NCBI GenBank assembly: GCA_014803435.1
Contig: JACYFD010000003.1
Coordinates: 1-64,000 of the forward strand
Reading direction: 5' to 3'
DNA from: Cellulosimicrobium terreum
GTDB lineage: Bacteria; Actinomycetota; Actinomycetes; Actinomycetales; Cellulomonadaceae
Length of the DNA stretch: 64,000 bases
Positions 4,569 through 33,418 of this stretch are shown piece by piece; the stretch's first letter is position 1, and each line of letters opens with the position of its first letter. The notes under the pieces are model-generated. The model ran no database searches, was not told the DNA's origin, and saw nothing but the letters and a program-made list of their open reading frames with translations. The position numbers and the translations under genes are program-made.

Positions 4569-7500
4569 TCAGCCGCAGCTCACGGCCTCGTACGGCACCT
4601 CGATCTCCGAGGTGACGTCACCGAGCGTCGCCGTGACCGTCGCCGCGCCCGCCTCGACGGACCCGGCGCGCGACGCGAACGACTGGTAGGCGTTCTTGCC
4701 CACCTCGACCCCGTCGAACTCCTTCGAGCCGAGCGGCGTGGTGAGGGTGACGTCGATCGGCGCGGTGTCCGCGTTCGTCGCGCGAACCGCGACGTACGCC
4801 TTGCCGGCCATGCACCTGGTCGTCGCCGTCGCCTCGACCGCGACCTCGGGTTCCGGCTCTGCACCGGAGGTGAGGTGGAACCAGTCGAACGCCACCGTGA
4901 CCGGCGACTCCTGCTCCGGGCCGATCGCCATCACGCCGATCGACGTGAGCGGCACGTCGTTGGTCACCGGCTGCCCCAGGGACTGCCAGTTCACCCCGCC
5001 GTCGCTCACCCAGCCCTGGTACGTGTCCCCGACCTTCTCGAGACGCAGGTACCAGTAGCCGGACTCCGTGGAGTCGGCGATGTTCAGCGCACGGTTGCCA
5101 CCGTTGCCGAACTGCGCGCCCTTCTCCGACACGAGCTCCGCCCCCAGGTTGAGGGCCCCGCCGGGCTGGTTGTTCGCCACCACGTCGAGCTTGACGTAGT
5201 TGTCGTCGTCGGCGTAGCCGATCAGACCGGCGAGCTGCCAGCGGTGCGCGAGGGGCGCCTTGAGCCGGGTCTCGGCCACCCAGTCGCCCTCCGGTGCCTC
5301 CTGGAGGATGAAGTTGCGCGGGTCCCCGTTCGCGGCGGCGTTGATGTCGCCGGGCTGGGTGGTGATGCGCAGCTCACCCCCCGCGACGACAGCCGTGGAG
5401 CTGTCGTAGCGGACGACGGAGTTCCAGCGGCACCCGTCGAGGGCGTCGCCCTCGAACTCGTCGCTCGGCTCACGCACGCCGTCGTCGGGCTCGGTGCCGG
5501 TGACGTGCACGTAGTCGACCTTCGCGACCGTGTCGGCCGCCGCCGTGTCTCCCCCGGCCATGACACCGAACGTCGCACCGGTCTTGACGGGGGCCGCCCC
5601 GTCCATGTCCGTCCACGCCTCACCGTCGGCCGAGTACGCCGCGGTGATCTCCTCGCCGTCGGACACGAGCCGCAGGTGGATCGTCGTCGGGAAGTCCGCG
5701 GCGACGTTCTCCTGGCCGTGCCACGTCCGGCTGCCGCCGGTCTCGGTCTGGAACTCGAGGAAACGGTTGCCGTTCTGGTTCTTCGTGAACGCGAGCTTGG
5801 TGTACTCGTCGTCGCTCACGTGGACGAGGAGACCCGCGTGCTGCCAGTGCCGCGCGAGCGGCACGTCGAGCTTGGTCTCCAGCGTCCAGGCACCCGCGGG
5901 AGCGGGCTGACCCAGGTAGCTGATCGGGCCGGGCACCGCCTCGTTGATGTCGCCCTGGACCACGGGGAGCACGGCGTGGCCGTCCACGACCGAGATCGCC
6001 GAGCCTTCGGCCTGGCGGACGACCGTCCACCGGGAGTCGAGCTCGTCGCCGTCGAACTCGTCCGACGCGTGCGCGAGGCACATCGGCGGGACGGGGTCGA
6101 CCGGCGGCTCCGGGGCGACCGGGTCGTCGTCGAACACGAAGTCCTGGAACTCCACGGCGCTCGTCGCGGTGGTGCTGTGCGCCGTGACGAACATCCCGAC
6201 GTCCTGGACAGACGCCGCACCCGGGAGGGCCTGCGGCTCCCCGATCTGCGTGAAGTTCTCGCCGTCCTTGCTCCAGAACGCCGTGTACAGGTCGCCGTCA
6301 CGCACGAGGCGCACCCACGCGGGGTAGCTCGTCGAGCTGGCGGCCGTCGACGTCGCGAGCTGGCCGCTCGCGTTGCCGCGCAGCCACTCGAACCCGTTTG
6401 CCGGCCGCATGCCCAGCGCGGCGTAGCCCGGCGAGCTGCCCGTCTGCGTGACGTCGTTGCGGACGATGATGCCCGCCTTGGCGCCGCCGTTGGAGTTGCC
6501 CTGGCTGTTGACCTTCACCGTCGCCGACCAGTTCTCGTCGGCGTCCTGCTCGCGGTAGATGGTCGAGTACTCGTTGGTGCCCTGCCACATGTTCGCGCCG
6601 CCCGAGGTGATGAGGTACTTGCCCTCGGAGAGCTGCTCGAACGTGCCGTTCGCGTTGCTGAAGGTCTTCATCCCGGCGAACAGGTCACCGACCTGCGCGA
6701 CGACGATGCGCGACCGCGTGTAGAGGCCCATGTCGTTGGTGGCGACCGCGGTCAGCTCGTAGTTGTTGTCCGTGGTCACCTCCCACGTCGCCTCGTACGG
6801 GGCCTCCGTGTCGACGCCGATCGACTCGCCGTCGACGAAGAACTCGACCTGGGTCACCGTGTTCTCGGTGTCCTCGGCCTCGGCCGCCACCGCGATCTCA
6901 CCCTGCTCGAGCTGCACGCCCGCCTCGGGCGCGGTGATGCGCACCTTGGGACGCGTCGTGTCCGACACGGCCTTGCCGTCCGCCTCGATGAAGTTGAGGC
7001 GACGTTCGCCCGCACCGGGGAAGACCACGAAGAGCGTGAACGGCTCCATGGGGTCCGTCGTCTCGACGCGCACGTCGGTGAACGTGCCGAGCCCGGTCTC
7101 CGGGATCTCGGCGGTGCCGAGCAGCTCCCCGTCGACCGCGTCGCGACGCAGCTCGATCGTGCCCTCGGCCGCCGAGGCGACCCGCAGGTTCAGCGCCTCG
7201 ACGCCGTACAGGCTCACCGGGTCGTACGACGCCCAGGCACCGTCGGCGCCGGCGATGACGGAACCGCCACCTTCGACGTCGCGGCTCGGGATCGTCGTCG
7301 TGCCCTCGCTCGCGGCGGTGAACTCGGCCTCACGCTTCTTCGGGAAGATGAGCGTCGTGTCCGAGCCCGTCAGCGCGGGCACGTCGCCCTCGCCACCGTT
7401 GTCCGTGTACCGCGCGTCGATCACGTAGAAGACGTTCATGTCCTCGCTGTGACCGCCGCCCAGGCTCGTCTGCACCGTGCCGGTGCGCCCGTGCAGCGGC

Positions 7501-10163: not shown

Positions 10164-10196
10164 CGTTGTGCCTCCAGGGGCATGACGTGCGGAAAC

Positions 10197-10214
10197 CCGG
10201 ACAGCTCTGTCCGG
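10197..10214. promoter_or_regulatory. Perfect inverted repeat between epimerase and giant gene
   Basis: CCGGACAG/CTGTCCGG with a 2-nt spacer lies 34 bp upstream of the start of the 1,864-aa gene. It could be a small attenuator hairpin or a repressor operator. It does not match the 24-bp operator found elsewhere in the locus. Confidence 0.35.
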
Positions 10215-10273
10215 AGTAGGTGGTCGTCATCCCGCGGCGTGCCGGCGCCTGCGGTCGTGGTGCGACTACGGGC

Positions 10274-11170
10274 TCACGTGGGGTCCGGCGAGGGCATCAG
10301 TCCTCTCAGGAAGGCGAGGCCATCGACGGCGATGGCGTCCTGGGTCGGCGCCAGCGGTCGCCAGATCGAGGCGGCCGTGGCGATCGTCGCGTTCTGCGCG
10401 GTGAAGGACTCGATGACGAGCGGGCCGTCGTAGCCCGCCGCGTCGAGCGCGGCGAGGAGGGCGGGCCAGTCGATGTGATCGTTCCCAGGGGCGCCGCGGT
10501 CGTTGCCGCACACCTGCACGTGCGCGATGCGCTCACCCGCACGGGCGATCGCCGCCGGCAGGTCCGTCTCCTCGATGTTCATGTGGTAGACGTCGAGCAT
10601 CAGGCCGATGCCATCGCCGGGCAGCCGGCCGACCACCTCGAGCCCCTGGTCCACCGTGTTGACCAGGCTCGTCTCGTAGCGGTTGAGCGGTTCGAGCCCC
10701 ACGACGACGCCGGCGGAGATCGCGTGGTCCACGACCGGTGCGAGGTGGGTGGCGAGCTCGTCGTACGCGGCCTCCCGCTCGGCCGGGGTCAGCCGCCAGG
10801 TCCGGCCGACGGACGCGTACGCGGGACCGCCGATCACGGGTGCACCCACCGTCCGCGCGATGTCGACGACTCGGCGCAGGTAGTCCTGCGTCGAGCGCAC
10901 GGTCGCGGCGTCCGTGGCGACGAGCTCTCGCCCGTCGCCCATCACGAGGGACACGCTCGCCCCCAGCCCGTGGTCGGCGAGGATCCGCGCCGCCAGCGCG
11001 GGGTCCCAGTCGTCCGGGTGCTCCACCGGGAGCTCGACGACGTCGAAGCCCCACATGGCGACGCGCGGCGCGATCTCGCGCAGGGAGTCGTCGGTGAGCG
11101 GGGAGGTCCACACCCAGGTGTTGACGCCCAGACTCCGGGGTCGCAGGGACACAGCGGGGGAAGGAGCCAC
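10274..11170 (-). CDS. Ketose 3-epimerase-like TIM-barrel protein
   Basis: A 298-aa sugar phosphate isomerase/epimerase (AP endonuclease 2-type TIM barrel). It carries the signature of the D-tagatose/D-psicose 3-epimerase branch: LEPLNRYETSLVNT (metal Glu near 158), LDVYHMNIEE (Asp near 193), HVQVCGNDRG with HIDW (His near 216) and VIESF (Glu near 255). These are the expected Glu-Asp-His-Glu metal ligands. C3 chemistry fits neighbours that would make or use 3-keto sugars. The GTG start at 11168-11170 has a weak GAGAGAG ahead. It lies between the importer operon and the first giant protein on the same strand, behind hairpins, so it may have its own promoter. Confidence 0.8.
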   Translation of the reverse strand: MAPSPAVSLRPRSLGVNTWVWTSPLTDDSLREIAPRVAMWGFDVVELPVEHPDDWDPALAARILADHGLGASVSLVMGDGRELVATDAATVRSTQDYLRRVVDIARTVGAPVIGGPAYASVGRTWRLTPAEREAAYDELATHLAPVVDHAISAGVVVGLEPLNRYETSLVNTVDQGLEVVGRLPGDGIGLMLDVYHMNIEETDLPAAIARAGERIAHVQVCGNDRGAPGNDHIDWPALLAALDAAGYDGPLVIESFTAQNATIATAASIWRPLAPTQDAIAVDGLAFLRGLMPSPDPT

Positions 11171-11330: not shown

Positions 11331-12560
11331 TCAGCGATCCGTCCACGCGTCGGGGAAGCCGGGCAGGTCCTCGCCACCGAACTTCGCGTAGTGCAGCGAC
11401 GGCATGTCGGCGTTCGCCTCGAGGTACGCGTCGAGCTCGTCTGCTGCGATCGGGTCCTGGGGCAGGACCCACTCGGAGGGGACCTCCTCGCCGGCCCAGA
11501 TCATCTGCGCCGCGAGGATCGGGGTGCGCCACTGGAAGTTCGAGTACACGGCGCCCAGGGCGTTCATGTCCGTGTCCTTCCACTTGCGCAGGAAGCTCAT
11601 CTCGTCCTCACCCATGAAGACCGGGTACGGCTTGCCCGCGTCCTCGAACGCCTCGACGGCCGCGACGGCGCCGTCCCCGGCGTCCATCCAGATGCCGTCG
11701 ACGTCACCGCGCTGCAGGTACTGGGTGACGATGTCCTTGATCTGTGCGGCGTCACCGCCCGTGAACTCCTGCCCGACGACCTCGAGGCCCGACTCGGCGA
11801 AGATCTTGTCGGCCGCGGCCCAGCGGTTCTCGAGCACGTCGACGCCCGGGAGGATGCGCAGTGCCAGGACCGTGGAGCCCTCGTCCAGGTTGTCGACCAG
11901 GAACTCGGCCCCGTCGGCCCCGTACGCGTAGCCACCGATCGGGTGGATGAAGGTCGTCATGCAGTCGCTGTTGACCCCGCGGTCGAACACGATGACCGGC
12001 TTGCCGGACTCGCACGCGGCCTCGACGGCGGGCGTGAGGGTCGCGGTCGTCGACGGCGAGACGACGATCGCGTCGCAGTCGCCGGCCTCGACGAAGGCCT
12101 GGATGTCGGAGATCTGCTTGTTGTCGTCGTCCGCGGCGTCGGAGACCCGGAACTCGCCGATGACACCCTCTTCCTGGAGGACCTCGACCTGCTGCTGCAT
12201 CGTGATCCACCCCGTCACGCGCCACGGGTTGGAGACCGACGCGTTGGAGAAGCAGAGCGTCTTGTCCCCGCCCTCGCTCGCGAGGTCGGCGGTGTCCACG
12301 TACTCGGGCTCGATCGCCTGGAGCCACGGCTGGTCGGCCGGACCCTCGGGCTCGACGTCGCGCTGCGCGAGCTGCCGGTCGTAGTCGGCCTGGACGAACC
12401 ACTCGGAGTCGGCGCCGCCGGTCTCCTCGCTGTCCTCGGTCTCCTCGGCCGAGGCCTCTCCCCCCTCGGGCGCATCCGTCGGGGCGTCGGTCGTGCAGGC
12501 GGCCGTGAGGAACAGTGTCGCCACTGCCGCGCCGGCCAGGAGTGCTCGTGTTCGTCGCAT
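11331..12560 (-). CDS. ABC sugar importer, substrate-binding lipoprotein (RbsB-like, system 1)
   Basis: A 409-aa lipoprotein. The signal peptide ends in a lipobox LFLTAAC (Cys near 22), then comes an acidic Glu/Asp/Thr-rich linker and a type I periplasmic-binding fold with DNKQISDIQAFVEAGDCDAIVVSP and GKPVIVFDRGVNSDC. It should deliver a monosaccharide or small glycoside to the permeases encoded just upstream. The ATG start at 12558-12560 follows AGAAGGAC directly. An ORF runs on to 13019 but through the permease gene in another frame. It is the last gene of its operon, after a 124-bp gap containing a GTCCGCC/GGCGGAC hairpin (12637-12678). This is an unusual place for a binding protein, normally made in excess. 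Confidence 0.85.
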   Translation of the reverse strand: MRRTRALLAGAAVATLFLTAACTTDAPTDAPEGGEASAEETEDSEETGGADSEWFVQADYDRQLAQRDVEPEGPADQPWLQAIEPEYVDTADLASEGGDKTLCFSNASVSNPWRVTGWITMQQQVEVLQEEGVIGEFRVSDAADDDNKQISDIQAFVEAGDCDAIVVSPSTTATLTPAVEAACESGKPVIVFDRGVNSDCMTTFIHPIGGYAYGADGAEFLVDNLDEGSTVLALRILPGVDVLENRWAAADKIFAESGLEVVGQEFTGGDAAQIKDIVTQYLQRGDVDGIWMDAGDGAVAAVEAFEDAGKPYPVFMGEDEMSFLRKWKDTDMNALGAVYSNFQWRTPILAAQMIWAGEEVPSEWVLPQDPIAADELDAYLEANADMPSLHYAKFGGEDLPGFPDAWTDR

Positions 12561-12684: not shown

Positions 12685-13767
12685 TCAGGTGCTGGTCGGG
12701 GCGGGCTCCTTCGGTTCGACGGACGTCTCCGCCCCTGTCGGGGTCTGACCCGCGGTCGGGCGACGACGGGCACGGCGGGGCATCGCCGCGTACGCGACGG
12801 CGGCGATGATGATGACGCCCTGGACCGCGGGCCGGATCGTGGACGGCAGGCTGAGCTGGTTGAACAACGTGAACAGCGCCTCGAGCGTGAGCGCTCCAGC
12901 CATGGCCGCGACGACCGTCCCCCGGCCTCCGCCGAGCACCACGCCGCCGAGCACGACGGCCGTGATGGCCATGAACTCCAGTCCTTCGCCGACCTGGGCC
13001 GAGACACCGGCATAGCCACCGATGAGGATCGCGGCGATCGTCGCCATGAGGCCGGACAGGAGGAACGCGCGCGTGCGCACCCACCACACGGACGAGCCGG
13101 AGTATGCCGCGGCCACGTCGTTGTCGCCCGTCGCGACGAGCGTGCGGCCGAACGGTCTGCGCATGAGCAGTGCGGCGAGCACGCCCAGCACCACCACGAT
13201 CATCAGCGCCCACGGCACCTGGAACTGGCCCGGGTTGTCGGGGATGCCACCCCGACCCCACTGCCGGAACCCGTCGGTCAGCGCACCCGTCGGTGCGCCG
13301 CCGGTCCACAGGCGGATGGCGCCGTACAGCACGAGCATCATGCCGAGCGTCGTGATGAACGACGGCACCTTGAGCAGCGTCGTCACGAGACCGTTGACGA
13401 GGCCGACGGCGAGGCCGAAGACCACCATGAGCGCCATGACCGGCCACGTCATCGAGTCCTCGCCGTCCATGAGCTTGGCAGCGATGACGACCTGTGCGCC
13501 GACGAGCGAACCGACCGAGAGGTCGAACTCGCCGGACACGATGACGAAGTACTGGCCGATCGCGAGGATCACGAGCGGCGCGGCCTTCTTGACGAACGCC
13601 ATGAGAGACATGGGCTCACCGAACGACGGGTTGATCACGAGGATCACGGCGAAGACGAGCACGAGCAGGGCGAAGACCGTCCAGCTCCCGCCCGCGGTGA
13701 GCCTCTCGACGAGGCTGGTCCGGGGCGCGTGCTCGGGGATCGTGCGGCGCGGGGCGACGGTGGTCAT
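12685..13767 (-). CDS. ABC sugar importer permease (RbsC-like, system 1, second permease)
   Basis: A 360-aa polytopic membrane protein of the branched-chain amino acid/ribose permease family. The signature GEFDLSVGSLVG is present, with the late VVLGGVVLGGGRGT loop, and repeated hydrophobic helices run through to about residue 330. The C-terminal tail is basic then Pro/Thr-rich. The ATG (13765-13767) overlaps the stop of the preceding permease by ATGA. Two different RbsC-type permeases in one operon imply a heterodimeric channel rather than the homodimer of classical RbsC. Confidence 0.85.
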   Translation of the reverse strand: MTTVAPRRTIPEHAPRTSLVERLTAGGSWTVFALLVLVFAVILVINPSFGEPMSLMAFVKKAAPLVILAIGQYFVIVSGEFDLSVGSLVGAQVVIAAKLMDGEDSMTWPVMALMVVFGLAVGLVNGLVTTLLKVPSFITTLGMMLVLYGAIRLWTGGAPTGALTDGFRQWGRGGIPDNPGQFQVPWALMIVVVLGVLAALLMRRPFGRTLVATGDNDVAAAYSGSSVWWVRTRAFLLSGLMATIAAILIGGYAGVSAQVGEGLEFMAITAVVLGGVVLGGGRGTVVAAMAGALTLEALFTLFNQLSLPSTIRPAVQGVIIIAAVAYAAMPRRARRRPTAGQTPTGAETSVEPKEPAPTST

Positions 13768-14864
13768 GCGGACGCACCTCCTGCGGTCGTCGTCGGGGAG
13801 TCGGGCCGGGTCGGCTCGGGGACCGGTGGTGACCCGCGGCCGCCCGAGCGGAACCGCGCCCGGCTGCTCGCCGGGTCGATCTGACGCCGGGCGTAGAGGG
13901 CGACGGCGGCGATGATGATGACGCCGCGCAGCACGTCCTTGAAGAAGGGGTCGACGTCGAGGACGTTGAACACCGTGTCGAGCACCGCGAGGATGAGCAC
14001 GCCCCCGACGGTCCCGACGACCGAGCCGCGCCCGCCCAGGAGGAGCGTGCCTCCGAGGACGACGGCGGCGATCGAGTCGAGGTCGAGCCCGTAGGAGTAG
14101 ACGAGCGCGTTGCCCGTGCCGAACCGAGCGGCGATCAGCAGACCGGCGACGCCGGCGCACACCGAGCAGAGCACGTGCGCCAGGACGATCGTCCGGTCGG
14201 TCCGGATCCCGGAGAGGCGTGCGACGTCCACGTTCCCCCCGACGGCGAACATGTGGTAGCCGGAGCGGGTCCGCGCCAGCAGGACCACGCCGACCGCCGC
14301 GACGAGGAGCATGACGACCGTGGACACCGGCACCGGGCCGATCCGCGTGTAGCCGAACATCTGGAACGTGCCCGGGACATCACCCGCGGGTCCCTTGAAC
14401 TGCGTGTCGAGATAGCCCTTGACGATCAGCCCGACGCCGAGGGTCGCGATGAACGGGTTGACGCGCAGCTTCGTGATCACGAGACCGTTGACCAGCCCGA
14501 CGACAGCTGCGACGGCCAGCGCCGCGAGGACGCCGATCCACACGCGCGACGGGTCGCCCGCCATGGTCGTGGCGCCGACGATCGAGCAGAGCGCGACGAC
14601 GTACCCGACGGACAGGTCGAGGGACCGGCACAGGATGACGAACGTCTGCCCGATCGCGACGAATCCGAGCAGGCTCGTCTGGGTGAGCATGTACGCGGTG
14701 TTCGCCGTGCTGAACAGGTTGCCCCCGCCGAGGGCGACGAGCACGCCGGCGACGACGAGGATGCCCACGAGGGCGAGATAGACGATCTCCGTCGACCCGA
14801 TCCGGTGCCGGCGCCGCGAGGCGGGGCGTGCGGTGGGTGCGGCGGTCGCGACCGCGGTGCTCAT
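13764..14864 (-). CDS. ABC sugar importer permease (RbsC-like, system 1, first permease)
   Basis: A 366-aa polytopic membrane protein with the family hallmarks CRSLDLSVGYVVAL, VGGNVDVARLSGI and VVLGGTLLLGGRGS. It starts with an Ala/Thr/Arg-rich cytoplasmic tail before the first helix. The ATG at 14862-14864 overlaps the ATPase stop by ATGA, and its own stop overlaps the next permease in the same way, so the three genes are translationally coupled. It is paired with the second permease and the ATPase 14861-16528. Confidence 0.85.
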   Translation of the reverse strand: MSTAVATAAPTARPASRRRHRIGSTEIVYLALVGILVVAGVLVALGGGNLFSTANTAYMLTQTSLLGFVAIGQTFVILCRSLDLSVGYVVALCSIVGATTMAGDPSRVWIGVLAALAVAAVVGLVNGLVITKLRVNPFIATLGVGLIVKGYLDTQFKGPAGDVPGTFQMFGYTRIGPVPVSTVVMLLVAAVGVVLLARTRSGYHMFAVGGNVDVARLSGIRTDRTIVLAHVLCSVCAGVAGLLIAARFGTGNALVYSYGLDLDSIAAVVLGGTLLLGGRGSVVGTVGGVLILAVLDTVFNVLDVDPFFKDVLRGVIIIAAVALYARRQIDPASSRARFRSGGRGSPPVPEPTRPDSPTTTAGGASA

Positions 14865-16528: not shown

Positions 16529-17742
16529 GGGGAGACCTCCACCCAGGACCGGGTGCGCACCGACTCGACGACGGCGGCGGCCAGCCGTGCGGCACGCAGG
16601 CCGTCGTCGAACGTCGGCAGACCGTCCGGACGGTGACCCTCGATCGCGGCGGCCGTGTCCCCCACGAGCGCGTCGAAGCACTCCTGGTAGCCCTGCGCGT
16701 GCCCGGCGGGGAGCCGGGAGTAGCGGGCCGCGGCGGGCGTCAGCGTCTCGGGGTCGCGGACCAGCGTGCGGGACACGCCGCGCCGCCCTTCCCACAGCGA
16801 CTCGGGCTGCTCCTGGTCGAACGCGAGCGTCGCCTCCGAGCCGGACACCTCGAGGTAGAGGCGGTTCTTCCGACCGGCGGAGACCTGGGAGATCAGGGCG
16901 GTGCCGAGCGCACCGGCGTCGGTCTCGTACTGGAGCGTCACGACGTCCTCCGTCGTGACCGCGTGCGAGCGCCCGCCCGGGCCGTGGCGCGTGGGGTTCA
17001 CGGTGGAGGACCTGGCGACGAGGGAGGCGATCCGCTGACCGGTCGTGAACTCGAGCAGGTCGCAGAAGTGCGAGCCGATGTCGGCGAACGCCCGGCTCGC
17101 GCCACCCAGCTCCGGGTCGACCCGCCAGTTGTCGTCCGTCTCGTTGAGGAGCCAGTCCTGCAGGTACGAGCCGTGGACGAGGTGCACGGTGCCGATGCGT
17201 CCCTGGCGCACGCGCTCGCGCGCCTCCCGGACCATCGGGTGGAAGCGGTAGGCGAACGGCACCACGGCGACGCGTCCGTCGGCGGCCCGGGCCTCGGCGG
17301 CGAGGCCGGCGAGCTCGGTGGCGCCCTCGACGTCGGTCGCGAGCGGCTTCTCGCAGACGACGTGCTTGCCCGCCTCGAGCGCGGCGCGGGCCAGCGCGAC
17401 GTGGGTGGAGTTGGGGGTGCAGACGTGGACCACGTCGACGTCGGGGTCGGCGATGAGCTCCGCGGCCGAGGAGGCCGCCCCGAGGGCGCCGAGGGCGTTC
17501 GCGCCGTCCCGTGCCGCGGCCTGGTCGGCGCCGGCGACGAGGGTGACGGTGCCGCCGGCGGTGCGCACCGCGCGGGCGTGCACACCACCCATGAATCCCA
17601 GGCCGATGATGCCCGCGCGATACCCGGCGGCGGGCAGCCGGCTCGGTGGGGACGTGTGGTCGGTGTCGGTCGCTCCCGCGGCCTGGGCACCCGGTTCCAG
17701 CACCGGGTACAGCAGGTCCTGCGCGACGTCGTCGGCTCGCAT
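16525..17742 (-). CDS. Gfo/Idh/MocA family sugar oxidoreductase (system 1)
   Basis: A 405-aa NAD(P)-dependent oxidoreductase. The N-terminal Rossmann fold carries GIIGLGFMGGVHARA (near residues 44-58), followed by the family motif CEKPLATDVEGA containing the catalytic-region Lys-Pro. The C-terminal domain has the usual FADIGSHFCDLLEF segment with the conserved Asp and His. Members oxidise hydroxyls of sugars and sugar derivatives, and ThuB of trehalose catabolism is one. First gene of an operon continuing into the ABC importer (stop/start overlap). The ATG at 17740-17742 lies 7 nt behind a -10 box without an SD, so the mRNA is probably leaderless. An ORF extends to 17778 but would pass through the promoter. 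Confidence 0.85.
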   Translation of the reverse strand: MRADDVAQDLLYPVLEPGAQAAGATDTDHTSPPSRLPAAGYRAGIIGLGFMGGVHARAVRTAGGTVTLVAGADQAAARDGANALGALGAASSAAELIADPDVDVVHVCTPNSTHVALARAALEAGKHVVCEKPLATDVEGATELAGLAAEARAADGRVAVVPFAYRFHPMVREARERVRQGRIGTVHLVHGSYLQDWLLNETDDNWRVDPELGGASRAFADIGSHFCDLLEFTTGQRIASLVARSSTVNPTRHGPGGRSHAVTTEDVVTLQYETDAGALGTALISQVSAGRKNRLYLEVSGSEATLAFDQEQPESLWEGRRGVSRTLVRDPETLTPAAARYSRLPAGHAQGYQECFDALVGDTAAAIEGHRPDGLPTFDDGLRAARLAAAVVESVRTRSWVEVSP

Positions 17743-25205: not shown

Positions 25206-26381
25206 CTACGGCTCGACCCAGCCGGCGCCCGACGCGGAGCTGCGCTCCACGGCGTCGAGCACACGCTGGACGGCGAGGCCGTCTGCGAAGGTCGGTGCGG
25301 GCTGCGTGCCAGCGGCGATCGCCTCCACGAGGTCCACCGCCTGGTGGGTGAAGGCGTGCTCGTACCCCAGCCCGTGGCCCGCCGGCCACCAGTGAGCGAT
25401 GTAGGCGTGCTCCGGCTCGGTGACGACGATCCGGCGGAAGCCGCCGAGTACGGCGTCCTCCTCGGCGTCGAAGAAGTGCAGGACGTTCATGTCCTCGAAG
25501 TCGAACGCGAGCGAGCCCTTCGACCCGTTGATCTCGATGCGGATCGCGTTCTTGCGCCCGTACGCGAACCGGGTCGCCTCGAACGTGCCGATGCCGCCGC
25601 CGGACATGCGCGCGAGGAACACCGCGGCGTCGTCCACCGTGACCGGGCCGCGCTCGGCGCCGCCCTGACCGGACAGCCCGGCGAAGTCCGTGGCGACCGG
25701 TCGCTCCGTCACGAACGTCTCGAGGTGGCCGGCGACGCTCGTGACCCGCTCGCCCGTGATGAACTGCGCGAGGTCGATGACGTGCGCGCCGATGTCGCCC
25801 AGCGCGCCGCTCCCGGCCTTCGACTTGTCGAGCCGCCACGAGAGCGGGGCGTTCTCGTCGGCGATCCAGTCCTGGAGGTACTGGGCGCGGACGTGACGCA
25901 CGGTCCCGATGCGACCGTCGGCGACGAGCTTGTGGGCGAGCTGGATGGCCGGCACGCGACGGTAGGTGAAGCCCACCATCGCGACCTGCCCGCGCGCCGC
26001 CGCGGCCTGCGCCGCCGCGACCATCTTCTCCGCCTCGGCGACCGTGTTGGCGAGCGGCTTCTCGCACAGGACGTGCTTGCCCGCCTCGAGCGCGGCGATC
26101 GCGATCTCGGCGTGGGTGTCGCCCGGGGTGCACACGTCGACGAGGTCGACGTCGTCGCGCGCGACGAGCGCCTCCCAGCTGGTCTCGGTCGACTCCCAGC
26201 CGAGCCGGTGCGCCGCGGCCTCGACCGCGTCCTTCCTCCGGCCACCCAGGACCCGCATCCGCGGCTCGAGGGGAAGGTCGAAGAACCGGGGTGCGGTCCG
26301 CCATGCCTGGGAGTGCGCCGCCCCCATGAACGAGTACCCGACCATACCGACGCCGAGCTGAGCGCCGTTGCTACCTGACAT
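25206..26381 (-). CDS. Gfo/Idh/MocA family sugar oxidoreductase (system 2)
   Basis: A 391-aa NAD(P)-dependent oxidoreductase. Rossmann motif VGMVGYSFMGAAHSQAW (residues 11-27), then CEKPLANTVAEAEKM and the C-terminal GDIGAHVIDLAQF segment. The SYSFMG-type nucleotide loop and long C-terminal domain are like those of actinobacterial homologues next to ribose-type importers. It is expected to oxidise or reduce a sugar ring hydroxyl in the cytoplasm after import by system 2. ATG at 26379-26381 with AAGGA 6 nt ahead. It follows the binding-protein gene on the same strand after a terminator-like hairpin, so it may be read by partial read-through or a separate promoter. Confidence 0.85.
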   Translation of the reverse strand: MSGSNGAQLGVGMVGYSFMGAAHSQAWRTAPRFFDLPLEPRMRVLGGRRKDAVEAAAHRLGWESTETSWEALVARDDVDLVDVCTPGDTHAEIAIAALEAGKHVLCEKPLANTVAEAEKMVAAAQAAAARGQVAMVGFTYRRVPAIQLAHKLVADGRIGTVRHVRAQYLQDWIADENAPLSWRLDKSKAGSGALGDIGAHVIDLAQFITGERVTSVAGHLETFVTERPVATDFAGLSGQGGAERGPVTVDDAAVFLARMSGGGIGTFEATRFAYGRKNAIRIEINGSKGSLAFDFEDMNVLHFFDAEEDAVLGGFRRIVVTEPEHAYIAHWWPAGHGLGYEHAFTHQAVDLVEAIAAGTQPAPTFADGLAVQRVLDAVERSSASGAGWVEP

Positions 26382-26485: not shown

Positions 26486-27553
26486 TCAGGACTGGAACGC
26501 GGTGGGCAGGTACTGCTCGACGTTGTCCGCGGTGACGACCGGGGCGAAGAGCTGGACGGTACGCGGCACGCCGGACGAGGCGAGGTCGCTCATGTTCTTC
26601 TCGTGCGCGACGAGACGGGCGAGCTTGATGCCGTCCGCGGCCTGGGTCGACGGGTAGACGACCGTCGCCTGGAGGACCGAGTCCCCGGCCTGGATGTGCT
26701 CCATGACCTGCTGCGAGCCGGCGCCGCCGACCATGAAGAACTCGTCGCGGCCCGCGTTCTCGATCGCGGAGAGCACGCCGACGCCCTGGTCGTCGTCGTG
26801 GTTCCAGATGGCGTCGATCTGCGGCGCGGCCTGGAGCAGGTTGGCCGTGGCGGACTCGCCACCCTGGACCGTGAAGTCCGCCGCGACGCGGTTGTCGACG
26901 TCGAGACCGCAGTCGCCGAGCGCGTCCTCGAAGCCCTGGCTGCGGTCCTGCGTGAGCGGGAGGGAGTCGATGCCGGCGATCTCCGCGACGACCGCGTCGG
27001 GGTTGTCCCCGAGCTGCTCGCAGATGTACTGCCCGGCGCTGACGCCCATGCCGTAGTTGTCGCCGAGGACCGTGGTGCGCGCGGCGAACGGGCTCGAGAA
27101 CTCGCGGTCGACGTTGATGACCGGGATCCCGGCCTCCATCGCCTTGGTCGCGACCTCGGTGAGCGCGGCACCGTCGAACGGCAGGAGCACGATCGCGTCG
27201 ACGCCGTCGTTGATGAAGCCCTCGATCTGGCTGATCTGGACGTTGACGTCGTTCGTGCCGTCGGCGACGCGGAGCTCGACGTCCTCGTACTCCGCGGCCT
27301 CGGCCTCCGCGGCGGTCGTGATGGCGCCCATCCAGCCGTGGTCGGCCGCCGGTGCCGAGAAGCCGATGACGAGGTCGTCGCCCGGCGCGTCGTTGTCGGA
27401 GACGGCCTGGTTGGTGCCGCCGCCACCGTCGCCTTCCGCGGTGTCCTCGTCGGCCGGGGTGTTCGAGGTACATGCCGTGGCGATCAGGGCGATCGACGCG
27501 GCGGACACCGTCGCGAGGGTGATGCGGCGGCGGAGGGTGGTGCGTGCGGACAT
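26486..27553 (-). CDS. ABC sugar importer, substrate-binding lipoprotein (RbsB-like, system 2)
   Basis: A 355-aa lipoprotein with lipobox LIATAC (Cys near 28), a Gly/Asp-rich linker and a type I periplasmic-binding fold: VIGFSAPAADHGWMGAI, NVQISQIEGFINDGVDAIVLLP, GIPVINVDREF and IWNHDDDQGVGVL. The last motif is usual for ribose/xylose/galactofuranose-type binding proteins. GAAGGAGAT lies just before the ATG at 27551-27553. It is encoded after the ATPase and permease with a 109-bp gap. Confidence 0.88.
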   Translation of the reverse strand: MSARTTLRRRITLATVSAASIALIATACTSNTPADEDTAEGDGGGGTNQAVSDNDAPGDDLVIGFSAPAADHGWMGAITTAAEAEAAEYEDVELRVADGTNDVNVQISQIEGFINDGVDAIVLLPFDGAALTEVATKAMEAGIPVINVDREFSSPFAARTTVLGDNYGMGVSAGQYICEQLGDNPDAVVAEIAGIDSLPLTQDRSQGFEDALGDCGLDVDNRVAADFTVQGGESATANLLQAAPQIDAIWNHDDDQGVGVLSAIENAGRDEFFMVGGAGSQQVMEHIQAGDSVLQATVVYPSTQAADGIKLARLVAHEKNMSDLASSGVPRTVQLFAPVVTADNVEQYLPTAFQS

Positions 27554-27600
27554 GAGATCTCCTTCGAAGCTGTCCGTGGAGGTGGAACCTCAGGGGAACT

Positions 27601-27652: not shown

Positions 27653-27662
27653 GTGCGGCGCG

Positions 27663-28703
27663 CTAGGTCGTGCGCCGGGAGAGGCGCTGCTGGAGCAGCA
27701 CCGCGCCGACGATGATCGCGCCCTTGGCGATCTGCTGGACCGAGCTGTCGATGTTGTTGATGATGAAGACGTTGGTGAGCGTCGTGAAGATGAGGACGCC
27801 CAGGACCGTGCCGACGATCGTGCCCCGGCCTCCCGCGAGGAGCGTGCCGCCGACGACCACAGCGGCGATGGTGTCGAGCTCGAGGAGCAGGCCGTTGGTC
27901 GAGGAGCCCGCGCTCGTGCGGGCGAGGATCATGACGCCGGCGATGCCCGCGGTCAGCCCCGAGAGGGCGTAGACGTACACGAGATGACGCTTGACCTTGA
28001 TGCCCGCGAGGCGTGCAGCCTCGGCGTTGCCGCCGACGGCGACCGTTCGACGGCCGAACGTCGTGCGGTTGAACAGGAACCAGCCGAGCACGGCGACGAG
28101 CGCGAAGATCCACACGATCTTCGGCATCCCGAGGAGGTTGCCCCGGAAGACGTCGTTGAACGCGGCGACGTCGACGATCTGCGTGCGCTTCTGCGCGATG
28201 AGCTCGGCGAGGCCGCGTGCCGCGACGAGCATCGCGAGCGTCGCGATGAACGCGACGACCCGTCCGTAGGCGATGATCAGGCCGTTCAGGAACCCGGCGG
28301 CGATGCCGACGACGAGCGCGCAGATGACCATGACGACCCACCCGTACGACTGGGTCGCGAGCGTCGTCGCCCACACGGAGGACAGTCCGAGCACGGAGCC
28401 GACCGACAGGTCGATGCCGCCCGTCGTGATGACGAACGTCATCCCGATGGCCACGACGCCCGTGACCGACCCGAGGCTGAGGATCGTCATGAGGTTGCTG
28501 ACGCTCAGGAACCGCTCGCCGCCCGTGGCGAAGCCCACGACGCACAGGAGCAGCAGGGCGACGACGAGGCCGATGTTGCGACCCGCCGCCCCCGACATGA
28601 ACCCGGCCTTCCGGCGATCGCTCCCGGTCTTCTCGACCCTGGCCGACTCATCGGCGTCCGGCTTGTCCGTCGGCACCGATGCCGACACCTGCTGCTCGCT
28701 CAC
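27663..28703 (-). CDS. ABC sugar importer permease (RbsC-like, system 2)
   Basis: A 346-aa polytopic membrane protein. After a 40-residue cytoplasmic N-terminal tail come about ten hydrophobic segments, with TTGGIDLSVGSVLGL, AVGGNAEAARLAGI and VVVGGTLLAGGRGT, the signatures of ribose-type permeases. It is the only permease of system 2, so it would work as a homodimer, in contrast to system 1. GTG start (28701-28703) overlaps the ATPase stop by GTGA. Confidence 0.88.
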   Translation of the reverse strand: MSEQQVSASVPTDKPDADESARVEKTGSDRRKAGFMSGAAGRNIGLVVALLLLCVVGFATGGERFLSVSNLMTILSLGSVTGVVAIGMTFVITTGGIDLSVGSVLGLSSVWATTLATQSYGWVVMVICALVVGIAAGFLNGLIIAYGRVVAFIATLAMLVAARGLAELIAQKRTQIVDVAAFNDVFRGNLLGMPKIVWIFALVAVLGWFLFNRTTFGRRTVAVGGNAEAARLAGIKVKRHLVYVYALSGLTAGIAGVMILARTSAGSSTNGLLLELDTIAAVVVGGTLLAGGRGTIVGTVLGVLIFTTLTNVFIINNIDSSVQQIAKGAIIVGAVLLQQRLSRRTT

Positions 28704-30220
28704 GCGACACTTCCTTCCATGACCATGTCGAGCACCTGGTGCTCGTCGATGGAGCTCGTGGGCCCCTCGTGCACGATGCGGCCCTCGGAGACGACGAGGA
28801 CGCGGTCGGCGAGGCCGAGGACTTCGGGGATCTCGCTGGAGACGACGACGACGGCGGCGCCCTCGTCGGCCAGCCTGCGGATGAGGGCGTAGATCTCTGC
28901 GCGCGCGCCGACGTCCACGCCGCGCGTGGGCTCGTCGAGGAGCAGGACGCGGCAGCCGTGGACGAGCCAGCGGGCAAGCATCGCCTTCTGCTGGTTGCCT
29001 CCGGACAGGGTTCGGATGGCGCGGTCGACGCCGGCGGGGCGCAGCTCGAGCGAGTCGGCCTGCTCCTTGGCCGCCTTCCGCTCGGCGCTCTCGTCGAGGA
29101 GGCCGCCACGGGCGAACCGGGCGAACGTCGAGAGGGTGATGTTGCGGTAGACCGGCTCGTCGAGGAGCAGGCCCTGGCTCTTGCGCTCCTCGGGAGCGAG
29201 TCCGATCCCGGCATCCACCGCCGAGGCCACGGACCCGGCGCGCAGCCTCTTCGCATCGACGGTGACGGTGCCCGCCGTCGCGCGACGCGCCCCGTAGATC
29301 GTCTCGATGATCTCCGAGCGTCCGGCCCCGACGAGGCCCGCGAGCCCGACGATCTCTCCCGCCCGTACCTGGAGGTTCACGTCCGTGAACGTGCCGCGCA
29401 GGCTGAGCCCCGCGACGTCGAGCACGACGGACGCGTCGTCGGCGAGCTCGGACGAGTCGGGGAAGACGTATTCGACGGAGCGTCCCGTCATGAGGGTGAT
29501 GAGCTTCTGCGTCGGAGTCTCGGAGACGGGAAGGTTCTGCGCGACGGTGCGGCCGTCCTTGAGGACGGTGATGCGGTCCCCGATCTCTCGGATCTCGTCG
29601 AGCCGGTGCGAGATGTAGACGACCGCGACACCCGCCTTCGTCAGCTCCTTGACGACGCGGAAGAGGTTCGCGACCTCCTCGGAGTCGAGCACCGCGGACG
29701 GCTCGTCCATGACGATGACGCGCGCGTCGTGAGACAGCGCCCGCGCCATCGAGACGATCTGCTTCCCGGCCGCCGACAGGTTCCCGACCTCCTGGTTGGG
29801 CGAGACCTCCGAGTGGCCGAGCCGCTTGAGGATGTCCCGCGTGCTGCGCACCGCCTCGCGGCGCTGCGAGAACCCGAGAGTCGCGAGCTCGTGACCGAGG
29901 TAGACGTTCTCCGCGACGGTGAGCCCGTCCACGACGTCGAGCTCCTGGTACATCGTCGCGACACCGTGCCGCAGCGCGGCGACGGGGTCGGAGATGCTGA
30001 TGGGCTCGCCGTCGAGGAGGATCTCGCCCTCGGTCGGCTGGTGGGCGCCGGCGAGCACCTTGATGAGCGTGGACTTGCCGGCGCCGTTCTGTCCGAGGAG
30101 GCAGTGGACCTCGCCGGGAAGGATCTCGAGGTCCACCCCGTCGAGCGCTCGCGCTCCGGGGAAGACCTTGACGATGCCCTGCATCTGCAGGAACGGCTGG
30201 GGGGGGTCTGCAATGACCAT
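28700..30220 (-). CDS. ABC sugar importer, tandem ATP-binding protein (RbsA-like, system 2)
   Basis: A 506-aa protein with two ATPase halves. First half: Walker A GQNGAGKST, signature LSAAGKQIVSMARAL, Walker B VIVMDEPSAVLD. Second half: degenerate loop GLVGAGRSE, signature LSGGNQQKAMLARWL, and LLLDEPTRGVDVGARAE. About the usual RbsA length. The ATG at 30218-30220 lies 7 nt behind a -10 box with no SD, so the transcript is probably leaderless. An ORF continues to 30256 but through that promoter. First gene of the importer-2 operon, divergent from the ROK repressor. Confidence 0.9.
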   Translation of the reverse strand: MVIADPPQPFLQMQGIVKVFPGARALDGVDLEILPGEVHCLLGQNGAGKSTLIKVLAGAHQPTEGEILLDGEPISISDPVAALRHGVATMYQELDVVDGLTVAENVYLGHELATLGFSQRREAVRSTRDILKRLGHSEVSPNQEVGNLSAAGKQIVSMARALSHDARVIVMDEPSAVLDSEEVANLFRVVKELTKAGVAVVYISHRLDEIREIGDRITVLKDGRTVAQNLPVSETPTQKLITLMTGRSVEYVFPDSSELADDASVVLDVAGLSLRGTFTDVNLQVRAGEIVGLAGLVGAGRSEIIETIYGARRATAGTVTVDAKRLRAGSVASAVDAGIGLAPEERKSQGLLLDEPVYRNITLSTFARFARGGLLDESAERKAAKEQADSLELRPAGVDRAIRTLSGGNQQKAMLARWLVHGCRVLLLDEPTRGVDVGARAEIYALIRRLADEGAAVVVVSSEIPEVLGLADRVLVVSEGRIVHEGPTSSIDEHQVLDMVMEGSVA

Positions 30221-30227
30221 GCCGCCG

Positions 30228-30263
30228 AACCTAGCCTGGCTTTTGACGGCCGTCAATCAGAAG
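30228..30263 (-). promoter_or_regulatory. Promoter and operator of importer operon 2
   Basis: Minus strand: TTGACG (30251-30256), 17 bp, TAGGTT (30228-30233), 7 nt, ATG. A 24-bp operator-like element (30240-30263; plus-strand ends CTTTTG and CAGAAG) covers the -35 and contains the perfect palindrome TTGACGGCCGTCAA (30243-30256). The spacing of operator, -35, -10 and start is the same, base for base, as at 17750-17785. Confidence 0.72.
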
Positions 30264-30542: not shown

Positions 30543-31730
30543 GTGCCCATGGAGGAACTGCTGAAGTTCGCGCCCCGACCCACGGGTGCCGGCGACATGT
30601 TCCAGCTGCTCCGTGACGGTCAGCCACGGACCCGCGCAGACCTCGCGTCGATCACCGGGCAGGCGCGCTCCACGATCGCCGCCCGGATCGACCTGCTCAT
30701 GAGCGCAGGACTGATCGCGCCGGCCGGCGAGGCGAGCTCGACCGGTGGACGACCCCCCGTCACCTTCGCGTTCAACCCCGGCGCGCGCATCGTCCTCGCC
30801 GTCGACCTCGGCGCGACCCACGCGCGCCTCGCGGTCACGGACCTGGCCTCGAACGTGCTCGCCGAGACCGACGCCCTGCTGTCGATCGCCGAGGGCCCGG
30901 ACGTCGTGCTCGCCTGGGTGGCGGAGACCGGCGAGAAGCTCATCGCCACCGCCGGGCGGACCACGGACGAGCTGGTGAGCGTCGGGGTCGGCCTCCCGGG
31001 TCCCGTCGAGCACTCGACCGGACGGCCGATCAACCCGCCGATCATGCCCGCGTGGGACGACGTCGACGTCCCCGGGATCCTGGCCAAGCACTTCGACGCC
31101 GCCGTCCTCGTCGACAACGACGTGAACATCATGGCCCTCGGTGAGCACCGCGCGGCCTGGCCCGACGTCACCGACATGCTGTTCGTCAAGGTCGCCACGG
31201 GGATCGGGTCCGGGATCATCGCGGACGGCGACCTGCGCCGCGGTGCCCAGGGCGCAGCCGGCGACATCGGGCACGTCGCCGTGCCCAGCGCGGAGGACAT
31301 CCCCTGCCGCTGCGGGAACGTCGGCTGCCTCGAGGCCGTCGCGAGCGGGCAGGCCGTCGCCGCGGTGCTCGCCGCACGTGGCCTCGACGCCTCGAGCAGC
31401 GGCGACGTCGTGGCGCTCGTCCGGGCGGGCGACCTCCAGGCCAGCCAGACGGTCCGGCAGGCGGGGCGCGACATCGGTTCGGTGCTCGCGGCGTGCGTCA
31501 GCATGCTCAACCCGTCGCTCATCGTCATCGGCGGGATCGTCGCCGAGGCCGGGGAGCACCTCATCGCCGGGATCCGCGAGGTCGTCTACCAGCGTTCCCT
31601 CCCGCTCTCCACGCAGCACCTGCGCATCGTCACGTCCCAGACCCGCGGTCAGGCCGGCGTCCTCGGTGCGAGCGCCATGGCGATCGATCACGTACTCTCA
31701 CCCGCAGCGATCGACGCCCTCATCGCATGA
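30543..31730 (+). CDS. ROK family transcriptional repressor
   Basis: A 395-aa protein with an N-terminal winged helix-turn-helix (about 15-75; TRADLASITGQARSTIAARI), then the ROK fold: ATP-site-like VDLGATHARLAVTDL, GVGLPGPVEHSTG, VDNDVNIMALGE and the zinc motif CRCGNVGCLEA (near 258). The ROK signature with a C-x-C-x4-C pattern is what is expected of NagC/Mlc/XylR-type sugar-responsive repressors. Start could be GTG at 30543 or ATG at 30549; neither has a good SD. It is divergent from importer 2, with operator copies before itself and before both importer operons, so it is the best candidate regulator of the whole locus. The inducer is unknown. Confidence 0.88.
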   Translation: MPMEELLKFAPRPTGAGDMFQLLRDGQPRTRADLASITGQARSTIAARIDLLMSAGLIAPAGEASSTGGRPPVTFAFNPGARIVLAVDLGATHARLAVTDLASNVLAETDALLSIAEGPDVVLAWVAETGEKLIATAGRTTDELVSVGVGLPGPVEHSTGRPINPPIMPAWDDVDVPGILAKHFDAAVLVDNDVNIMALGEHRAAWPDVTDMLFVKVATGIGSGIIADGDLRRGAQGAAGDIGHVAVPSAEDIPCRCGNVGCLEAVASGQAVAAVLAARGLDASSSGDVVALVRAGDLQASQTVRQAGRDIGSVLAACVSMLNPSLIVIGGIVAEAGEHLIAGIREVVYQRSLPLSTQHLRIVTSQTRGQAGVLGASAMAIDHVLSPAAIDALIA

Positions 31731-31785: not shown

Positions 31786-32451
31786 ATGACCGAGCGGGAC
31801 CGACGAGCACTCGTGGTCCGCGGAGGCTGGCCCGGGCACGCGCCCGAGGAGGCCGCGGAGCTGTTCGTCCCGTTCCTGGAGGCGTCCGGGTTCGACGTGA
31901 CCCTCGACGGGTCGCTCGAGTCCTACGCGGACGCCGAGTTCATGGCCGGCATCGACCTCGTCGTCCAGTGCTGGACCATGGGCGAGATCCTGCCCGACGA
32001 GATGCGAGGGTTGCGGACAGCCGTGGAGAGCGGCACCGGGTTCGCCGGCTGGCACGGCGGCATCGTCGACTCGTTCCGCCTCGCGACCGACTACCTGCAG
32101 ATGGTCGGGGGCCAGTTCGCCGCGCACGCGCACGACCTCCTCGACCACACGGTCGACATCCTCCCCGAGCGGGCCGACCACCCGATCGTGGCCGGGATCG
32201 AGCAGATCGAGCTGCGCTCCGAGCAGTACTGGGTCCTCGCCGACTCGTACAACGACGTGCTCGCGACGACGACGATCCAGCCGCGCGACGGGGACCCCTG
32301 GCGCGATCCCGTCGTCTCGCCGGCGGTGTGGACGCGGCAGTGGGGCGAGGGCCGGATCTTCGTGTGCGCGGCAGGCCACCAGCTCGCCGACCTCGAGAAC
32401 CCGTCCATCCGCACGATCGTGGAGCGCGGCCTCCTCTGGGCCAGCCGCTGA
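31786..32451 (+). CDS. Cytoplasmic ThuA domain protein
   Basis: A 221-aa single-domain ThuA protein (trehalose utilisation family, GATase1-like fold) without signal peptide. Motifs: VRGGWPGHAPEEAAELF, GTGFAGWHGGIVDSFR, HPIVAGI, EQYWVL and GRIFVCAAGHQ. ThuA members are known to act with Gfo/Idh/MocA oxidoreductases such as ThuB in breakdown of 3-keto-sugars. The start is ATG at 31786 with AAGGAGG 5 nt ahead. An ORF extends upstream only as a shadow of the ROK gene. It lies 55 bp after the repressor, probably in the same transcript. The two giant proteins carry extracellular domains of the same family. Confidence 0.85.
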   Translation: MTERDRRALVVRGGWPGHAPEEAAELFVPFLEASGFDVTLDGSLESYADAEFMAGIDLVVQCWTMGEILPDEMRGLRTAVESGTGFAGWHGGIVDSFRLATDYLQMVGGQFAAHAHDLLDHTVDILPERADHPIVAGIEQIELRSEQYWVLADSYNDVLATTTIQPRDGDPWRDPVVSPAVWTRQWGEGRIFVCAAGHQLADLENPSIRTIVERGLLWASR

Positions 32452-32512: not shown

Positions 32513-33418
32513 GTGACCCTCTTCCGCGGTCTGATCGCGTACCCCATCACGCCCCTCACCCCCGACGACGTCCCCGACCTCGACGCCGTCGCGAACCTCG
32601 TGCGCGGGGCGGCACGGGCGGGGGTCGACGGCGTGGCGGTGCTCGCGTCGTCGGGGGCGGGGGTGACGTTCGACGCGGCCGAGCGCGCCGCGGTCGTGGG
32701 GGCAGCCGTCGACGCGGCCCGGGCCGCCTCGGGCGGGGACCTGCCGGTCCACGTCGCCGTGAGCGGAACGTCGACGCGAGAGATTCTCGCGCGCGCCCGC
32801 GCAGCGCGCGACGGTGGGGCGAGCGGTCTCGTGCTCGCGCCGTTCTCCTACGTCCCGCTCGTCGACGGCGAGGTCGCGGCCCTGTTCGGGGCGGTGGCCG
32901 ACGCCGTCGACCTGCCGGTGTGCTTCTACAACAAGCCCGTGCAGACGGGCTACGACGTGTCGCCGGGCATGCTCGCGCGGCTCGCCCGGACGACGACGGT
33001 GTCCGCCGTGAAGGACCCTGTCCCGCTGCCCGACCGACCGGCAGGACGAGTCACCGCGCTGCGCGACGCCGTGACCGGGCTCGACGTCGGCGTCGGGCTC
33101 AGCGGCGACCGCGCGCTCCTCGGCTCGGCCGAGCCCGCTGACGCGTGGCACAGCGGCCTCGCCGCGCTCGTACCCGCGGAGTACGTGGTGGTGCGTCGCG
33201 CGCGGGTGGACGGCACCGCGCCCGACCCGGACACCGACGCGTGGCTGCGGGCGCTGGTCGACGTCCTCGCCGGGCTGCGCCCGGTGAGCGGGTTCCACGC
33301 CCTGGCCGACCTGCTCGGGGTACCGACCGCTCCCCCGCGCGGCCCGTCCCTCCCGGTGGACGACGCCGGTCGAGCCCGCCTCGCCGCTGTCGTCGCGCGC
33401 CGGCCCGCCGCGGCGTGA
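32513..33418 (+). CDS. DapA-family aldolase/lyase (dihydrodipicolinate synthase-like)
   Basis: A 301-aa TIM barrel of the DHDPS/N-acetylneuraminate lyase family. The Schiff-base region VSAVKDPVP (Lys near 166) and the tyrosine motif VCFYNKPVQTGYD (Tyr near 138) are in place. The substrate-carboxylate loop, usually GTTGE, reads SSGAG here (residues 45-49), which argues against true DapA activity and for another 2-keto acid or sugar aldolase. GTG start at 32513; TACACT (32501-32506) lies 6 nt ahead and there is no SD, so probably leaderless. It follows the ThuA gene by 61 bp and may belong to the sugar locus, releasing pyruvate or a related fragment. That role is inference. Confidence 0.75.
   Translation: MTLFRGLIAYPITPLTPDDVPDLDAVANLVRGAARAGVDGVAVLASSGAGVTFDAAERAAVVGAAVDAARAASGGDLPVHVAVSGTSTREILARARAARDGGASGLVLAPFSYVPLVDGEVAALFGAVADAVDLPVCFYNKPVQTGYDVSPGMLARLARTTTVSAVKDPVPLPDRPAGRVTALRDAVTGLDVGVGLSGDRALLGSAEPADAWHSGLAALVPAEYVVVRRARVDGTAPDPDTDAWLRALVDVLAGLRPVSGFHALADLLGVPTAPPRGPSLPVDDAGRARLAAVVARRPAAA

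Follow-up and report, generated by a model that had tools for sequence, protein, structure and literature searches.

A Cellulosimicrobium terreum gene locus with secreted ThuA-GSDH proteins and a possible outside-to-inside route of oxidative glycoside cleavage

Why would giant secreted proteins with sugar dehydrogenase propellers be encoded in one cluster with intracellular enzymes of 3-keto-sugar metabolism? The question is raised by positions 4569 to 33418 of a 64,000-nucleotide stretch of Cellulosimicrobium terreum DNA (contig JACYFD010000003.1; hereafter, the window), which comes from a genome assembled into 14 contigs with a total of 4,485,253 bases. The original prediction for this locus was a 3-keto-glycoside route of sugar cleavage. 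Its parts were identified by Pfam scans with curated cut-offs and by NCBIfam scans of the locus proteins, and the predicted three ThuA domains, two Gfo/Idh/MocA dehydrogenases, two triosephosphate isomerase (TIM) barrels, two propellers, and aldolase-type protein were all present in Pfam (Table 1). Sequence and gene context support a route of this type well, and from these we infer its chemistry. We propose that the locus encodes an oxidative glycoside-cleavage pathway run as a relay from the outside of the cell to the inside, a reading to which we assign a probability of roughly 0.58.

The secreted ThuA-GSDH proteins

The two GSDH propellers above the Pfam cut-off lie one in each of two giant proteins, giant 1 and giant 2, and two of the three ThuA domains (PF06283) above the cut-off are fused to them. 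The ThuA-GSDH parts of the giants are 46% identical. The N-terminal signal of giant 1 was judged by eye, and giant 2 most likely starts at 24987, because a ribosome-binding-like site is found there, and not at 26304, where the longest open frame begins.

An alignment of 27 propeller sequences (A1) showed that the dehydrogenase catalytic His and an Arg-Asn pair are kept in all 27, and that a Cys-Cys pair immediately precedes the invariant His (A1 positions 353-355) in 25. Methanol dehydrogenase has a disulfide between adjacent cysteines close to its pyrroloquinoline quinone (PQQ), and the propeller pair could therefore be a cofactor-site feature. Sequence alignments of the propeller did not clearly reach the C-terminal PQQ-binding residues of soluble glucose dehydrogenase, and the giants scored 50.3 and 68.4 bits with TIGR03606, the NCBIfam PQQ sugar dehydrogenase subfamily, below its cut-off of 434.55. 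The giants differ from the soluble PQQ sugar dehydrogenases and AA12 proteins (3a9g, 3das, 1cq1, and 6h7t) in their fused ThuA and binding modules and in the Cys-Cys pair before the His. A1 used 27 of 37 rows, a set already cleared of four repeat copies and of matches spanning fewer than 600 residues of the query; it left out near-duplicates (L011, L033, L020, L014, L013, L036, and L039), own-genome copies (L047 and L049), and one partial sequence (L008). A further alignment, A2, used 14 of 18 sequences.

Our strongest argument for keto-glycoside chemistry in the secreted part comes from propeller fusions elsewhere. Contig C1 of the same genome encodes two more fused propeller proteins (L063:3590-8374 and L064:2495-7288), one frame reading ThuA-GSDH-PKD-3keto-disac_hyd and the other GSDH-PKD-CBM6-AP_endonuc_2. 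In a genome of the same order (G067), a 1930-codon frame (L071:13611-19400) has ThuA, GSDH, PKD, CBM6, AP_endonuc_2, 3keto-disac_hyd, and collagen-like matches and adjoins relatives of the ROK protein, an Rbs-type importer, dehydrogenase 2, and TIM barrel 2. Two other genomes (G065 and G107) place a GSDH-PKD-CBM6 protein with no ThuA match between dehydrogenase 2 and TIM barrel 2. As described in the available text of the respective papers, the 3keto-disac_hyd family is linked to 3-keto-glycoside hydrolysis (PMC9007349), and the AP_endonuc_2 family includes beta-eliminases and hydratases (PMC7676230, PMC10066097, and PMC10628242). Because the propeller co-occurs with ThuA, 3keto-disac_hyd, and AP_endonuc_2, the secreted part may both form and cleave keto-glycosides. 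In the window's own giants, PF06439 (3-keto-disaccharide hydrolase) was not among the Pfam families to E 0.1, and giant 2 had no Pfam match to a hydrolase-type domain of known kind. A ThuA-GSDH relative (45-56% identity in pieces) was also observed on a contig of a halophilic archaeon (L040:10001-17550), for which gene transfer is possible.

A protein with the domain order of giant 2 has already been purified from Cellulosimicrobium cellulans F16. According to the available text of that study (PMC4562250), M768_06655, or Xyl_S, carries ThuA, GSDH, PKD, CBM_6, and PKD in order, and its fragments of 118.3 and 118.5 kDa, which are without about 500 C-terminal residues, acted on 7-xylosyl-10-deacetylpaclitaxel. 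The isolated subunit also acted on p-nitrophenyl (pNP) beta-xyloside and pNP-beta-glucoside; the authors suggested a new glycoside hydrolase (GH) family, and the same text assigns no mechanism. Residues 41-1140 of giant 2, which omit 538 residues, have a calculated mass of 118.1 kDa, and we liken the two proteins by domain order and truncated mass. The literature covered on ThuA-GSDH proteins, mostly at title and abstract level and with subscription journals thinly represented, contained no proposal of 3-keto-glycoside cleavage. The original prediction did not know the combination or its substrate. A protein of this build is on record, and its link to 3-keto chemistry appears new as far as that literature goes.

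Intracellular enzymes and conserved neighbors

The chemistry predicted inside the cell is of a type already described. Two PDB sequences match TIM barrel 2 with an E value of 0.001 or lower: 2zds (3.5e-164), which is titled a putative DNA-binding protein, and 8ro4 (1.7e-33), a 2-hydroxy-3-keto-glucal hydratase. Dehydrogenase 2 was nearest to 4h3v (2.5e-189), titled an oxidoreductase domain protein, and then to 6a3f (6.5e-91), which shares an entry group with 6A3I, described as a levoglucosan dehydrogenase in the part of the source available; 5ya8, a scyllo-inositol/L-glucose dehydrogenase, was among its relatives. The best NCBIfam model for both dehydrogenases was the levoglucosan dehydrogenase NF052479, with 371.6 bits for dehydrogenase 2 and 153.7 bits for dehydrogenase 1, both missing the cut-off of 650. 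The candidates in the locus for a 3-keto-glycoside eliminase are ThuA and TIM barrel 1. The latter is a weak candidate because its nearest solved relatives are ketose 3-epimerases; its score with the NCBIfam psicose epimerase model was 134.9 bits (cut-off 300).

The published four-step routes proceed through oxidation, elimination, hydration, and reduction (available text of PMC7676230, PMC10066097, and PMC10628242). As far as that text goes, the levoglucosan pathway LgdA/LgdB1/LgdB2/LgdC of Bacillus smithii S-2701M (PMC7676230) and relatives (PMC10066097) resembles the locus at family level in that a pair of Gfo/Idh/MocA enzymes and a pair of AP_endonuc_2 TIM barrels are clustered with a sugar ATP-binding cassette (ABC) importer, and ROK regulators are present in Lgd-type neighborhoods as they are here. 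The locus differs in that its dehydrogenases fall under the LgdA cut-off and in having, in addition, the secreted giants and a stand-alone ThuA. The Agrobacterium O-glucoside pathway, GlycDH-OGE-HYD-Gfo in the same partial source (PMC10628242), has a reaction order identical to that predicted here, and TIM barrel 2 falls in one sequence family with the hydratase 8ro4. However, no GlycDH-type oxidase was seen in the locus, where the oxidase candidate is the secreted propeller.

The original prediction cited the trehalose ThuAB system as an established case, but the intracellular part proved closer to the oxidation-elimination-hydration-reduction pathways. In the trehalose system of rhizobia, ThuA has a Gfo/Idh/MocA partner, ThuB, and the ThuEFGK importer lies beside the genes. 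The locus shares ThuA (PF06283) and Gfo/Idh/MocA with it, whereas the importers in 4569-33418 are of the Rbs type, with none of the ThuEFGK type, and ThuA is mostly secreted and fused. On a Rhizobium plasmid, ROK, Gfo, and ThuA genes adjoin a binding-protein ABC importer, and UgpC-type ABC genes occur there. Among 106 plasmid records with a match to the stand-alone ThuA, two regions were examined, and in these its relatives adjoin Gfo/Idh/MocA genes.

Conservation of the neighborhood was examined in 35 loci retrieved with giant 2, in 24 of which the giant-2 match spanned 75% or more of the query. Since dehydrogenase 2 was kept in 22 of the 24, importer 2 in 21, and TIM barrel 2 in 19, the genes are associated beyond chance; the ROK protein and a stand-alone ThuA (at least 50% identity) were each found in 18. 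Three of the five loci from which TIM barrel 2 is absent (L013, L016, and L030) reach a contig end soon past the giant, and in two loci, L021 and L026, the giant is complete but the fetched stretch contains neither dehydrogenase 2 nor TIM barrel 2. The named relatives with identical gene order are Cellulosimicrobium. Outside the Cellulosimicrobium/Isoptericola-type order, the core occurs in Herbiconiux (L025, rearranged), Haloactinopolyspora (L023), Nocardioides (L031), and Microbacterium (L032), and no ligA match was found in these four fetched stretches. Dehydrogenase 1 and importer 1 (11/24) and TIM barrel 1 (10/24) were restricted to Cellulosimicrobium and one locus, L022, titled Sphaerisporangium cinnabarinum ATCC 31213. 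Because L022 and Cellulosimicrobium funkei JCM 14302 share 97.0% identity across 25.0 kb, that record is probably mislabeled or contaminated.

In 119 genomes drawn from the order, the ThuA-GSDH part was matched at E 1e-60 or better in 16, and full-length giants (at least 670 aligned residues) were found in 11 genomes as 17 copies. All 11 had at least one copy within 20 kb of relatives of both TIM barrel 2 and dehydrogenase 2 (at least 55% identity), and 3 of the 17 copies were near neither; the rough chance of such linkage is 1% per genome for one randomly placed gene, related genomes not being independent. Excluded from this count were five ThuA-only rows, rows with less than 55% identity, and the partial row G090:C8. 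TIM barrel 2 was present in 65 of the 119 genomes in 73 copies, with a dehydrogenase-2 relative within 15 kb in 58 and within 2 kb in 48. Because TIM barrel 2 is found in 65 genomes and giants in 11, the dehydrogenase-hydratase pair is common, with the giant as an add-on. The pairing recurred on plasmids: six regions with TIM-barrel-2 relatives (58-79% identity) were examined out of 608 records with a match, and all six had a dehydrogenase relative in the cluster. Type 1 (40-56%) was present in four regions and type 2 (42-55%) in three, with both in one. An Arthrobacter agilis plasmid carries ROK, an Rbs-type importer, both dehydrogenase types, and two TIM barrels, and on a Novosphingobium plasmid, relatives of TIM barrel 2 and of dehydrogenase 1 are grouped with a GMC oxidoreductase, an AP_endonuc_2 protein, and the beta subunit of a C-glycoside deglycosidase (PF19906).

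The relay and competing explanations

In the proposed relay, the giants would bind glycans outside the cell through their CBM6 and lectin-like modules, the GSDH propeller would oxidize a terminal beta-xylosyl or beta-glucosyl residue at one of its hydroxyls, most likely the one on C3, and the fused ThuA would cleave the resulting keto-glycoside. An Rbs-type importer would then take up the keto-sugar or 2-hydroxy-3-keto-glycal; TIM barrel 2, judging from homology and context, would hydrate the glycal, and an LgdA/LgdC-like Gfo/Idh/MocA enzyme, from homology, would reduce the 3-keto-sugar to an ordinary sugar. Importer 1, TIM barrel 1, and dehydrogenase 1 may widen the route to a further substrate or to glycosides that are still intact. 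The components, the way they are fused, and the conservation of their surroundings are direct observations, whereas the C3 oxidation, the ThuA reaction, and the use of PQQ are inferred. Such a relay, with an importer 1 module that among the 24 loci has the narrow distribution given above, fits better than the doubled outside and inside chemistry of the original prediction. It is also possible, although we consider it rather doubtful, that the secreted ThuA-GSDH part is a self-contained oxidative glycosidase, with quinone-dependent C3 oxidation and bond cleavage by ThuA. The electrons might then return to the product, much as in the NAD-dependent GH4 mechanism but with a quinone, or exit through the small anchored protein beside giant 2.

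Several observations weigh against the relay. In the available text on the F16 enzyme (PMC4562250), the full-length gel mass is about 200 kDa, compared with 175.4 kDa calculated for mature giant 2, which speaks against equating the two proteins. The reported activity also calls for caution, since kcat on the taxane is 0.061 per s, one of two native bands was active, and the assays list no PQQ and no electron acceptor. In addition, pqqE was not found above the cut-off. This last point also favors a 3-keto route confined to the cell interior, like those described for the levoglucosan and O-glucoside operons, with accessory giants. The propeller would then be a C1 aldose dehydrogenase or a binding fold and ThuA a sugar-binding module, and glycosides would enter the cell intact, to be cleaved there by TIM barrel 1 or the stand-alone ThuA. 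In favor of this, the pair of dehydrogenase 2 and TIM barrel 2 is much more widespread than the giant (TIM barrel 2 in 65 and full-length giants in 11 of 119 genomes), solved members of the propeller fold include C1 aldose dehydrogenases, and a ThuA-like fold is a glycan-binding domain elsewhere, as far as the accessible source describes it. We nevertheless consider this explanation unlikely, given the propeller fusions to 3keto-disac_hyd and AP_endonuc_2 domains, the linkage of the giant to the pair in 11 of 11 genomes, and the glycosidase activity that PMC4562250 reports for an F16 protein built like the giant.

The F16 authors' own proposal, a new hydrolase family, would make the giants conventional, nonoxidative glycosidases and leave the Gfo/Idh/MocA and TIM-barrel enzymes to serve some other purpose. 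Cleavage of pNP-glycosides and the taxane without added cofactor (PMC4562250, available text) is a further point for this and against the relay. However, the proposal is improbable in view of the missing Pfam match of known hydrolase type in giant 2, the dehydrogenase His and Arg-Asn pair in 27/27 propellers, and the fusions and conserved neighbors. Even less probable is the degradation of inositols or amino sugars by inositol dehydrogenases, an inosose dehydratase and epimerase, and a DHDPS aldolase. It draws on 5ya8 among the dehydrogenase 2 relatives and on weak NCBIfam matches to IolG (110.9 and 116.8 bits) and IolE (46.5 bits), but these are far under their cut-offs (355 and 290), the 8ro4 hydratase and LgdA models fit better, and secreted CBM6 proteins suit glycans. 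The DHDPS-family gene, moreover, is probably not a core part because it is present in only 8 of the 24 loci. That the locus is simply a levoglucosan operon we regard as the least credible explanation: levoglucosan dehydrogenase is the best model of both dehydrogenases, and the importer, ROK protein, and TIM barrels resemble the neighborhoods in the published text available, but the scores of 371.6 and 153.7 bits stand against a cut-off of 650, and levoglucosan should need no secreted glycan-binding protein.

Layout of the locus and possible significance

All genes from 30256 to 4569 lie on the minus strand, in the order importer 2 (ATPase, permease, and binding protein), dehydrogenase 2, giant 2, the small secreted protein, TIM barrel 2, dehydrogenase 1, importer 1 (ATPase, two permeases, and binding protein), TIM barrel 1, and giant 1. 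The plus strand carries the ROK protein, the stand-alone ThuA, the DHDPS-family gene, and then a ligA-like gene. The single regulated cluster of the original prediction is a possible reading. A scan of 10000-29999 detected 1 terminator-like site, where shuffled sequences had a mean of 3.2, and the whole window had 0 Rfam matches at gathering scores and 0 tRNA genes. Both predicted RbsABC importers are present; importer 1 has two permeases, and importer 2 was assigned partly by sequence and position, its permease and ATPase being outside the Pfam and NCBIfam scans.

The small secreted protein, an addition to the original list of parts, accompanies giant 2 in 17 of the 24 loci. Its predicted mature N terminus is a His (HGG or HSG), and His28 is conserved in the alignments; the predicted fold suggests a likeness to FetP/P19 copper proteins that is generic only. 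Beyond the locus, a GH65-family protein of phosphorylase type was observed at window positions 46017-48983 (12.6 kb past the locus), and the minus strand at 40865-45916 carries a long AdhE-like frame, in which an aldehyde dehydrogenase domain is combined with an iron alcohol dehydrogenase domain.

Table 1. Features of the locus, with positions in the window
Feature	Position	Strand	Basis or remarks
Giant 1, 1864 aa	4569..10163	-	Pfam: ThuA, GSDH propeller, PKD, CBM6, Big_7, GH43_C2/DUF1349 repeats
TIM barrel 1, AP_endonuc_2	10274..11170	-	Pfam; nearest solved are ketose 3-epimerases, 8yeb E 1.2e-42
Importer 1 sugar-binding protein (Peripla_BP_4)	11331..12560	-	Pfam
Importer 1 permease b (BPD_transp_2)	12685..13767	-	Pfam
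Importer 1 permease a (BPD_transp_2)	13764..14864	-	Pfam
Importer 1 ATPase, two ABC_tran domains (RbsA type)	14861..16528	-	Pfam
Dehydrogenase 1, Gfo/Idh/MocA; candidate 3-keto-sugar reductase	16525..17703	-	Pfam; plasmid relatives clustered with TIM barrel 2 relatives
TIM barrel 2, AP_endonuc_2; candidate 2-hydroxy-3-keto-glycal hydratase	17946..18947	-	Pfam, PDB matches
Small protein, secretion signal and C-terminal membrane anchor by eye	19003..19692	-	No Pfam match
Giant 2, 1678 aa	19951..24987	-	Pfam: ThuA, GSDH propeller, PKD, CBM6, PKD, GH43_C2/DUF1349 repeats
Dehydrogenase 2, Gfo/Idh/MocA, LgdA-like	25206..26381	-	Pfam; NF052479; PDB matches
Importer 2 sugar-binding protein	26486..27553	-	NCBIfam sugar-binding matches, below model cut-offs
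Importer 2 permease	27663..28703	-	Sequence, position, BLAST to annotated Rbs-type permeases
Importer 2 ATPase (RbsA type)	28700..30256	-	Sequence, position, BLAST to annotated RbsA-type ATPases
ROK-family protein, candidate regulator	30543..31730	+	Pfam
Stand-alone ThuA, no signal seen	31786..32451	+	Pfam
DHDPS-family aldolase-type protein	32513..33418	+	Pfam
ligA-like gene	33429-35876	+	Named by eye; after DHDPS-family gene

The proposed relay gives ThuA, which Pfam describes just as "trehalose utilisation," a testable job, and it offers a mechanism for the 2015 xylose-removing enzyme preparation, active on a taxol precursor, that was said to need a new GH family. It also suggests functions for two solved structures, 2zds as a keto-glycal hydratase and 4h3v as an LgdA-like dehydrogenase. 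If the secreted version is true, oxidative cleavage of sugar bonds would extend to polymers and bulky glycosides outside the cell, and if the self-contained form is true, Gram-positive bacteria would possess an extracellular, polysaccharide-targeted 3-keto-glycoside system in which ThuA has a function.

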